This document shows, in pieces, positions 3,617 to 12,341 of a DNA stretch of 64,000 bases (the first letter of the stretch is position 1; each line of letters opens with the position of its first letter). The notes below the pieces were generated by a model. The model was not told the DNA's origin and did not search any database. It was given only the letters and a program-made list of their open reading frames with translations. This DNA comes from Halorussus vallis (GTDB taxonomy: Archaea; Halobacteriota; Halobacteria; Halobacteriales; Haladaptataceae). A program made the translations under genes and the position numbers. Location: NCBI RefSeq assembly GCF_024138165.1, contig NZ_CP100000.1, positions 3,162,001 through 3,226,000 of the forward strand. Direction: 5' to 3'.

Positions 3617-4735
3617 TCAGTGAGTCGACGTCTCGGTCTTGCACACGCGGTCGACGTCGGTGAATTCGAAGCGCGCGCCGCCCGACTCGCCGTCGGTGAT
3701 CGAGTAGTCCCAGCCGTAGGTTTCGGCCAACTCGGCGACGAACATCAGGCCGAACCCGGTGCCGCCGGTGGTGTAGCCCGCGTCGAATATCCGCTCGCGC
3801 TCGTCTGCAGGGATGCCGGGACCGTCGTCTTCGACGTAGAAGCCGCCGTCGAGGTCCCCGACGCGGATGGTCACGGACCCGTCGGCGTGTTCGACCGCGT
3901 TCGTGAACAGATTCTCCAGCAGGTGCCGCAGGTGGACCGGGTTGGCCAGGAGCGTCAGGTCGGTTTCGACGGCGAGTTCGGCGTTCGCGACATCGAGGTC
4001 GACCCACGCCGCCTCGGCGACCGACGCCAGCGCCACCGCCTCGCGGTCGATGTCGGCGTCCTCGCCCCTGGTGATGACCAAGATGACCTCGACCATCTCC
4101 TCGATGCGGGTGAGCGCGGTTTCGAGTTCCTCTGCGGCGTCCCGGTCGCCTTCGACCGCCGGTCCGAGGTAGATTCTGGCGACCGAAAGCGGGTTGCGGA
4201 GTTCGTGGGCGAGGAGGCTCGCGAAGTTGTCCAGCAGGGAGTTCTGGCGCTGTAGCTCCTCGCTCTGTTCGCGGAGTTCCTCCTGTTGGCGTCGGAGTTG
4301 CCGGCGCTGGCGGCGGAGTTGGCGGGCCTGAGTCCGCCCGCGGGCGTCGTACACTCCGACGAGGAAGCCGCTGGCGGTGCCGATGGACGTGGTGAGCGTC
4401 AGCGACCAGCGCGGATACCGGATGACGACGCCCGGTTCGAACCGCAGGAGTTCGACCAGTCCGAGCGTGACGGCGAACCCGCCGAGACACCACCCCACGA
4501 TTCTGGTGTACGTCTCCGGTTCGATCTCCATCTCGGGCAGGCGGTAGCCGCCGTAGAGGAGGACGAGGCCGGGTGCGCCGACGAGCAGGAAGTCGATGAA
4601 ACCGGTCGACAGCGCTTTACTTCCCGAAACGACGTACAACGCGCGCCCGACGGCCAACACGACGTAAATCCCCCCCAGAAGACAGAACACCCGATTCCAA
4701 CCCACCGACCTGAGGCGATTCCGTCCCTGTCCCAT
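3617..4735 (-). CDS. membrane sensor histidine kinase
   Basis: A 372-residue kinase with several N-terminal hydrophobic segments (about residues 12-130). An Arg/Gln-rich coiled coil follows (135-168), then the H box LLAHELRNPLS with phospho-acceptor His177. An N box (ENLFTNAVEHA), a G1 box (DDGPGIP) and a glycine-rich lid (GGTGFGLMF) complete the ATPase. The upstream GTG at 4741 is also possible; I prefer the ATG at 4735. No receiver domain or cognate regulator gene is adjacent. It is a close relative in layout of the kinase at 11202. The signal sensed is unknown; with no extracellular domain, sensing within or near the membrane is likely. Confidence 0.88.
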   Translation of the reverse strand: MGQGRNRLRSVGWNRVFCLLGGIYVVLAVGRALYVVSGSKALSTGFIDFLLVGAPGLVLLYGGYRLPEMEIEPETYTRIVGWCLGGFAVTLGLVELLRFEPGVVIRYPRWSLTLTTSIGTASGFLVGVYDARGRTQARQLRRQRRQLRRQQEELREQSEELQRQNSLLDNFASLLAHELRNPLSVARIYLGPAVEGDRDAAEELETALTRIEEMVEVILVITRGEDADIDREAVALASVAEAAWVDLDVANAELAVETDLTLLANPVHLRHLLENLFTNAVEHADGSVTIRVGDLDGGFYVEDDGPGIPADERERIFDAGYTTGGTGFGLMFVAELAETYGWDYSITDGESGGARFEFTDVDRVCKTETSTH

Positions 4736-4975
4736 TGCCACCTTCGACGTGAGGCAGTCATTTAACTCGTTTGATGGGGGTGTCAGCCCGTCGGATTCCG
4801 CGGCGCTGTAACGTGATCGTTGGGCGGTCGCGCAGACGGACCGTCACGCTCGGTCCCGTCCTCTCACCGACGAGGTGCCCGACTTAGAGACGGGTGATAT
4901 AGAAAGTCCCCGACGGTGCGCGTGGCGATATCAACCCACACCCTCACTCTGGTGGCCGTCTTGCACGGGCAGTAC

Positions 4976-11201: not shown

Positions 11202-12341
11202 ATGCTTCGCCGGCTCCGGTTCCGCTCGCCGAGGAGTGCCGAGTTCGCCATCACGCTCCTGGGAATTGTTCTCTCGGGCGTTGCGATCGGACGATTCCCG
11301 TTCGCGGTCGTCGTCCGGGCACCGTTCGCGGAGGCGGTCATCCACGCCGTCCTCGTCGGCGCGCCCGGCCTCGTCCTCGTCTACGGCGGCCTGAGACTCT
11401 CCGAAAGTGGTATCGACCCCGAGGCGTACCCGCGGGTGGCCCACTGGTGTTTCGGTGGGGTGGGCGTGTTGCTCGTCGGCCTCGGCCTGCTCGGACTCAA
11501 CCCCGCGGGCCGAATCGCCAACCCCGTCGAGGCCGGAATCTTCGCCACGGCCATCGGGGGCGTCGGCGGGTTCACCATCGGCCTCCACGACGCCCAGGCC
11601 GTCACTCGGGCCGAAGAGGCCGAGGCCCACCAGCGCCGACTTCGGCGGCAGAAACAGGCGCTCGAACGCCAGAACGAGCAGTTGGAGAGCTTCGCGAGCA
11701 TGCTCGCCCACGAACTCCGCAATCCGCTTCAGATCGCCCAGATATACCTCCAGCAGATACCGACCGACGACGGGAGCGCCCTCGCCGAAGTCGAACACGC
11801 CCACGACCGCATCGAGGAGATGATCGACATCCTGCTGGTGACCGCGCGGCGGACGGACCCGGACATAAGTTGGGAGGCGGTCCCGCTGGCCGACGTCTGC
11901 ACGGAAACTTGGTCGGCCGTGGAGACGAACGGGGCTGAACTCGCCGTCGAAACCGACCGGACGATTCGCGCGGACCCTCTTCACCTCCGCCACCTCCTAG
12001 AGAACCTCTGTAAGAACGCTGTGGAGCATAGCTCCACGAGCCCTCGTCGGAACGACGAGAACGCCGTCGAACACGGCGACTGGTCGCCGACCGTCAGGGT
12101 CGGCGACCTGCCCGACGGCTTCTTCGTCGCCGACGACGGTCCCGGTATCCCCGAGGACGAGCGCGAAACCGTCTTCGACGCGGGCTACAGCACGCGCAAG
12201 GACGGCATCGGACTCGGCCTCACCTTCGTGGCTCGGCTCGCAGACACCTACGGCTGGGAGTGCGCGGCGACCGAGAGCGAGGCGGGCGGCGCGCGCTTCG
12301 AGTTCCGGAACGTCGAACTCGTCGAGTCCGAGGGCCGATAG
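11202..12341 (+). CDS. membrane sensor histidine kinase with palindromic insert in N box
   Basis: A 379-residue paralogue of the kinase at 3617-4735, with the same plan. Several membrane helices (15-130) are followed by a short coiled coil, the H box MLAHELRNPLQ (His170), the N box ENLCKNAVEHS, DDGPGIP and the GIGLGLTF lid. Unlike its sister it has a 15-residue insertion after NAVEH that ends by repeating NAVEH (N272 and N287), so the end of the N box is duplicated. No response regulator is adjacent. The stop is 42 bp from the convergent regulator gene at 12383. Confidence 0.88.
   Translation: MLRRLRFRSPRSAEFAITLLGIVLSGVAIGRFPFAVVVRAPFAEAVIHAVLVGAPGLVLVYGGLRLSESGIDPEAYPRVAHWCFGGVGVLLVGLGLLGLNPAGRIANPVEAGIFATAIGGVGGFTIGLHDAQAVTRAEEAEAHQRRLRRQKQALERQNEQLESFASMLAHELRNPLQIAQIYLQQIPTDDGSALAEVEHAHDRIEEMIDILLVTARRTDPDISWEAVPLADVCTETWSAVETNGAELAVETDRTIRADPLHLRHLLENLCKNAVEHSSTSPRRNDENAVEHGDWSPTVRVGDLPDGFFVADDGPGIPEDERETVFDAGYSTRKDGIGLGLTFVARLADTYGWECAATESEAGGARFEFRNVELVESEGR
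12015..12074 (+). repeat. in-frame insert of two small palindromes flanked by a duplicated NAVEH coding block
   Basis: AACGCTGTGGAGCAT (12015-12029) recurs as AACGCCGTCGAACAC (12060-12074), exactly 45 bp later. Between them lie two perfect hairpins: GTGGAGC-ATA-GCTCCAC (12021-12037) and CTCGTCG-GAA-CGACGAG (12043-12059). The reading frame is kept. Confidence 0.75.

Follow-up and report, generated by a model that had tools for sequence, protein, structure and literature searches.

Palindromic elements within coding sequence are best known from Rickettsia and from some bacterial REPs. In archaea, Suyama et al. 2005 reportedly found palindromic repeats with coding potential in Methanocaldococcus jannaschii, a methanogen. 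These repeats, cited as an archaeal precedent in another report (Suyama et al. 2005, in PMC2229807), resemble by description the unit studied here in being fused into protein genes, but come from a methanogen and not from a haloarchaeon. Rickettsia palindromic elements (RPEs) and the CGTC- and GTAG-tagged REPs are short bacterial palindromic units with variable arms that occur in clusters, both in intergenic DNA and in frame in conserved genes, with tRNA synthetases among the REP hosts (PMC3733652, PMC2229807). RPE-4 and RPE-6 are counted there as CGTC REPs and lie inside ORFs, and the CGTC REPs, which have stems of 8-9 bp and loops of 4-5 nt, form mostly head-to-head dimers and are given no dedicated transposase (PMC3733652). 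The PATEs, or terminal-only IS605 derivatives, of Haloquadratum are themselves haloarchaeal; they are described as having two near-terminal palindromes, a terminal-only form that goes down to 52 bp, and a terminal oligonucleotide that serves as the target (PMC3119063). Perfect inverted repeats in coding sequence are also described from nematomorph mitochondria, where repeat conversion is proposed, but these palindromes reach 284 bp and are scattered through mitochondrial genes, and are not copies of one short, dispersed unit tied to a target motif (PMC6649704).

Here we examine a 64,000-nucleotide stretch of Halorussus vallis DNA (the window), in which a histidine kinase gene carries a palindromic insert that belongs to a family dispersed among haloarchaea. 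Like RPEs and REPs, the family unit is short and palindromic, has variable arms, forms clusters, lies in frame in unrelated conserved ORFs (a tRNA synthetase among them) as well as in intergenic DNA, is present or absent at orthologous sites, and, like the CGTC REPs, occurs without a recognised transposase. It differs from them in being archaeal and in consisting of two different hairpins arranged head to tail, with 7-bp stems, a 3-nt loop in hairpin 1 (HP1), a GAGC linker and an ACGCC target. The unit lacks the stems of 8-9 bp, the loops of 4-5 nt, the A-T pairs at the first two positions and the CCA tail of CGTC REPs; at its ends and target stands (G)ACG, which is CGT(C) on the opposite strand. 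As for GTAG REPs or REPINs with a RAYT, no GTAG stands at either end of the aligned units, and 6 of 14 high-copy genomes lack PF01797. The unit shares with PATEs the features listed above but differs in that no matching IS605-type end was found, many copies are coding and in frame, and it is present without a Y1 transposase. By description it works like RPEs and terminal-only PATEs, and the comparison with Rickettsia drawn in the preliminary description is apt in this functional sense, although the repeat anatomy differs from the one given there. A literature search of titles and abstract openings, with subscription journals mostly outside its reach, returned no account of haloarchaeal coding palindromic elements, and we therefore file the unit as a new family of a known type, the comparison with RPEs and PATEs being one of descriptions.

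The insert in the window kinase

The preliminary description had reported two perfect 7-bp-stem hairpins beside the N-box Asn of this kinase, in 15 residues that a sister kinase at 3617 lacks, and closer analysis agrees on each point (Table 1). Each hairpin has a perfect 7-bp stem and a 3-nt loop, and the 45-bp insert, which directly follows the Asn-Ala codons, adds 15 in-frame residues that are absent from eight of nine aligned kinases, including the sister (the nine are seven from other genomes of the genus, an own-genome paralogue and the sister). In the ninth (L085) a shorter insert with other arms is present; its stems, read by eye, are GTGGAGC/GCTCGAC and CACCGTC/GACGGTG, and the own-genome paralogue L002 has a decayed version in which hairpin 1 pairing is lost. 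The nearest kinases are only 50-60% identical to the window kinase, so that the window insertion has no close empty allele, and the copy is itself a weak model match (37 bits) with AACGCT as its left target. An 81% direct repeat, with AACGCTGTGGAGCA starting at 12015 and AACGCCGTCGAACA at 12060, flanks the hairpins, and GTCGAACACGGC follows directly 3' of AACGCC.

Table 1. Features of the window kinase, its insert and the sister gene.
Feature	Position	Strand	Basis
Histidine kinase with insert, 4TM-HisKA-HATPase_c	11202..12341	+	Pfam HisKA_4TM, HisKA, HATPase_c
Left target copy, N-box Asn-Ala codons AACGCT	12015..12020	+	Left flank [AGT]ACGCC in 50/55 units, flank not fixed in search
Palindromic element, 45 bp, short-loop class	12021..12065	+	Covariance models R1 (37.3 bits) and R2 (36.9 bits)
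Hairpin 1 (HP1) GTGGAGC-ATA-GCTCCAC, also coding for Val-Glu-His that completes the N box	12021..12037	+	Sequence, RNA fold
Linker GAGCC, conserved	12038..12042	+	GAGC invariant in 60 units
Hairpin 2 (HP2) CTCGTCG-GAA-CGACGAG, short loop	12043..12059	+	Sequence, RNA fold
Right target-motif copy AACGCC	12060..12065	+	Sequence
Host Val-Glu-His-Gly codons, displaced	12066..12077	+	Analogy with filled/empty kinase pair L256/L257
Extra perfect 11-bp hairpin, following strand region	12082..12108	+	Sequence, RNA fold
Sister kinase without insert	3617..4741	-	Alignment

The hairpin pair is unlikely to come from chance or codon usage. Perfect 7-3-7 hairpins number 11 in the window against a mean of 7.6 in Markov controls; the kinase pair is the window's only hairpin pair within 45 bp, and of 100 Markov controls two held such a pair. 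When the synonymous codons of the kinase were shuffled 20,000 times, two non-overlapping hairpins arose once, and RNA folding of 12010-12110, a region that takes in two further downstream hairpins, gave z = -6.9. Directly 3' of the insert, the hairpin GGTCGCCGACC-GTCAG-GGTCGGCGACC (12082-12108) includes two residues (Trp-Ser) more than L002 and may mark another palindrome-creating event.

Distribution and host genes

The family unit reads hairpin 1, GAGC, hairpin 2 and a terminal (G)ACGCC over 45-57 bp, with G-C rich 7-bp stems and a loop of 3 nt in HP1 and of 3-10 nt in HP2. A search of haloarchaeal genomes for the hairpin pair in kinases and other genes, as the preliminary description had proposed, was positive: of the 391 genomes of the class, 27 matched the exact pattern GTGGAGCNNNGCTCCACNAGCCC, 40 times in all and in 17 of 86 genera, and the reversed control matched nowhere. 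In translation the unit is seen in kinase N boxes, often in tandem, and in a glutamyl-tRNA synthetase. A second pattern, in which only the linker and right end were fixed and hairpin 1 was left free, drew 45 stretches from ~85,000 genomes, all 45 with haloarchaeal titles. The R1 covariance model (E<=1e-4) matched in 236 of 391 genomes and 63 of 86 genera; because no more than 14 candidates per genome were scored, its copy numbers are lower bounds. From the best R1 matches 90 loci were taken, 81 with the strict regex core and nine others that are also good R1 matches; 59 of the 81 bear a kinase signature, and among the 22 without one are some kinases that the regex missed. The insert is thus not an ancient, conserved part of this kinase subfamily with palindromes at no other locus, since the closest kinases mostly lack it and many non-kinase genes have the unit, which agrees with the selfish-element reading first put forward.

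In the window's own genome, the broader model R2, partly built from that genome's copies, gave 71 matches at E<=0.01, most of them non-coding: by an ORF and GC3 test 17 are coding (9 sense, 8 antisense; L282, L289, L294 and L298 are doubtful as coding) and 54 are non-coding. The matched length is divisible by three in 16 of the 17 coding copies, and the 54 non-coding copies have remainders 0/2/1 in 34/12/8 cases. Intergenic relatives in window genome C1 (e.g. L154, L155, L160 and L165) have longer flanks in common (CCAGCGCGCGCC), as though they belonged to a more extensive intergenic repeat. Several fixed-end subfamilies (TCCACC...GACCTC, ACCGCC...GACGCA) are also seen among this genome's non-coding R2 matches and resemble a haloarchaeal REP family.

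The unit inserts in frame in many genes, sometimes essential ones. Kinase N boxes are the site of most retrieved copies; other hosts identified by Pfam are glutamyl-tRNA synthetase, a flavin amine oxidoreductase, a response regulator with PAS, a tetrapyrrole methylase, a VLRF1-type release factor and a rhodanese/metallo-beta-lactamase protein with the unit at two sites. Hosts in the window's own genome (Pfam) are arylsulfotransferase, methyltransferase, biotin ligase, FrhB, DUF790, iPGM (phosphoglycerate mutase), molybdopterin oxidoreductase, ScpA and COX1, the copies in FrhB, ScpA and COX1 lying outside the recognised domain. TnpB and, in another genome, a CGI-121 protein (L206) are further hosts, and host L053 has no Pfam match. 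Four plasmid records with the unit are annotated as sensor kinase, cobalt-precorrin methyltransferase, MBL-fold hydrolase and hypothetical protein. The reading frame is not set by the protein, as in TnpB the copies are read in a different frame and in the own genome some are antisense. A viral vehicle was rejected, with no match in viral contigs (slightly shorter pattern) or in phages.

Filled and empty sites

Comparison of filled and empty sites in several genes reveals exact insertions of 48 or 45 bp, usually at RACGCC. For a kinase type present in two of seven genomes searched, the filled gene (L256) reads AACGCC-(48 bp)-GTCGAACACGGC and the empty gene (L257) reads AACGCAGTCGAACACGGC, the proteins being 81% identical. 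From the empty allele it follows that the host Val-Glu-His-Gly codons are the right-hand copy and that the N-box Val-Glu-His comes from the element. The preliminary description had spoken of duplicated NAVEH coding blocks; an 81% direct repeat is indeed present, but the blocks are no simple duplication, since in this pair, the clearest filled/empty one among the kinases, only the Asn-Ala codons (RACGCC) are duplicated.

Among 30 metallo-beta-lactamase loci of one genus (L226-L255), identified as Haloarcula by the matching record L070, site 2 is filled in 7, empty in 15 and unmatched by the regex in 8, and site 1 is filled in one (L253), empty in 19 and unmatched in 10, site 1 being filled in other genera as well. 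Glutamyl-tRNA synthetase is filled in three of seven genes of one genus (one copy longer and decayed) and empty in four, and iPGM in the window's genus is filled in 2 of 18 and empty in 16, with a 45-bp copy in the own genome and a different 51-bp unit in L335, which lies beside the own-genome insertion place and is apparently an independent insertion. The duplicated bases in iPGM are GAC, not ACGCC, and fit GAC|G and not RACGCC. TnpB is filled in L272 and L274 and empty in L261 and L269, and throughout the genus biotin ligase has a hotspot of variable length that holds more than one kind of hairpin. The presence/absence contrasts are within genera, or between genera for TnpB, and no insertion difference was seen between strains of one species. 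Of the 55 linker-only units, 50 have [AGT]ACGCC as their left flank (38 of the 41 that do not follow directly on another unit) and 53 have G as the base that follows on the right; many own-genome non-coding matches end in motifs other than RACGCC.

Covariation in the stems

Since hairpin 1 lies outside the linker pattern, its pairing in the linker-only units is an unbiased test. The HP1 arms pair at 7 of 7 positions in 44 of the 55 units and at 6 of 7 in 9, giving 368 of 385 pairs where shuffled partners give 307+-6, and the three free pairs of HP2 form in 140 of 165 cases against 70.5+-6.7. In an alignment of 60 units, taken from 90 collected, 95.6% of cells are standard pairs, two-sided change affects 8 of the 13 pairs and 126 cells, one-sided change is found in no cell of helix 1 and in five cells of helix 2, G-U pairs are nearly absent from the stems, and sliding the stem partner lowers pairing to <=42.4%. 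These 60 units are related and were pre-filtered for hairpin-1 pairing, so shuffle figures for them are not to be read as probabilities. An RNA-family reading was rejected, no Rfam family being matched in the five loci scanned. The covariation suggests palindromes at the level of DNA, maintained either through template-switch correction or because a folded strand is under selection, and not an RNA structure.

Origin and persistence of the insert

The unit is dispersed, has inserted exactly and in frame at one motif in several genes, has covarying stems and forms tandem arrays. The insert is probably a copy of a non-autonomous, selfish family of haloarchaeal palindromic elements that inserts at a short motif, mostly RACGCC, which is left on both sides. 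Such an element would move in the form of a folded single strand of DNA, either acted on by a single-strand transposase or recombinase or copied by template switching on the microhomology that the repeated motif offers. Its perfect arms would be kept via quasi-palindrome correction, and copies would last where they are in frame and code for a flexible loop. Kinase N boxes may be a hub because their Asn-Ala codons form the target motif and because gene conversion can carry the element between paralogues. As the element brings Val-Glu-His, the N box stays intact and the host VEHG moves ~15 residues. In an AlphaFold model of the window kinase built from ten sequences (mean pLDDT 73.9, pTM 0.43), insert residues 279-293 have pLDDT <50 and form a loop that links the N-box helix (259-278) to the strand after it (297-303), N-terminal of the later nucleotide-binding motifs, which are intact in sequence; the host copy is pushed into this predicted disordered loop. 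A protein-domain reading was rejected, as Pfam finds no domain of the insert's own and the model leaves it unstructured. No gene emerged as a driver: of 14 high-copy genomes, 8 have Y1_Tnp and 6 lack it, and at 14 Y1_Tnp loci R2 gave two strong matches, one inside TnpB and one ~2 kb off, with none at IS200-type ends. An IS200/IS605 driver was rejected on that incomplete presence and because neither model puts the unit at IS ends in the loci examined. A more specific scenario, which we put forward tentatively, is a still-active, target-specific ssDNA parasite with a new enzyme, one lineage of which has specialised on kinase N boxes by rebuilding the split motif, paralogous kinases being its safe harbour.

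It is possible, if rather doubtful, that the unit spreads with no dedicated enzyme, hairpin-stalled replication and 5-bp microhomology (ACGCC) copying it into other ACGCC sites. That the motif flanks most copies on both sides, that no driver was found and that the strictly Watson-Crick arms fit template-switch correction, a process discussed for coding palindromes in PMC6649704, would all suit this account; yet ACGCC is frequent (0.25% of window positions) while one unit dominates, and precise 48-bp units recur across genera.

A benefit to the host, either from an acidic loop tuning kinase activity or from an mRNA structure pausing the ribosome, seems improbable. It could be argued from kinases being the commonest host (59 of 81 loci examined), from the strong RNA fold and from the His kept in 72 of 72 N-box units, but His is kept in 96 of 99 later kinase units too, so its retention need not reflect N-box selection and was rejected as a sign of it. 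Against a benefit stand also the many unrelated hosts, the common empty orthologues, the near absence of G-U pairs, unlike RNA-level selection, the lack of an Rfam family in the five loci scanned and the predicted disorder of the insert.

Tandem arrays of 48-bp units are common. Of 88 first pairs of adjacent units, 24 agree in their Val codon where 37+-4.5 would be expected, the contrast being weaker over all 132 pairs (44 against 53+-5). Neighbouring units are no more alike than shuffled ones, so the arrays probably did not grow by simple slippage, and pure tandem slippage was rejected. In the arrays of L041, L048, L068, L038 and L027, the VEH-type unit is mixed with GSENASEP and GRQPSGEP hairpin units, and the GAGCCC...GGACGCC frame is kept. 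A local origin in the kinase, by slippage duplication of a NAVEH block and template switching that perfected the palindromes with no mobile element, could draw on the 81% direct repeat flanking the insert and on the common arrays but is very unlikely, given the unit in unrelated genes and intergenic DNA, the Val codon deficit, the empty kinase allele with right-hand and not left-hand VEH codons, and the contradicting non-kinase filled/empty pairs.

Implications

The palindromic family is present in most sampled haloarchaeal genera and has a clear target motif, filled/empty pairs and genetically tractable hosts, so that element movement and protein tolerance become testable. The 15-16 residue DAVEH/STSP-type repeats of haloarchaeal proteins are likely to be inserted DNA and not domains.
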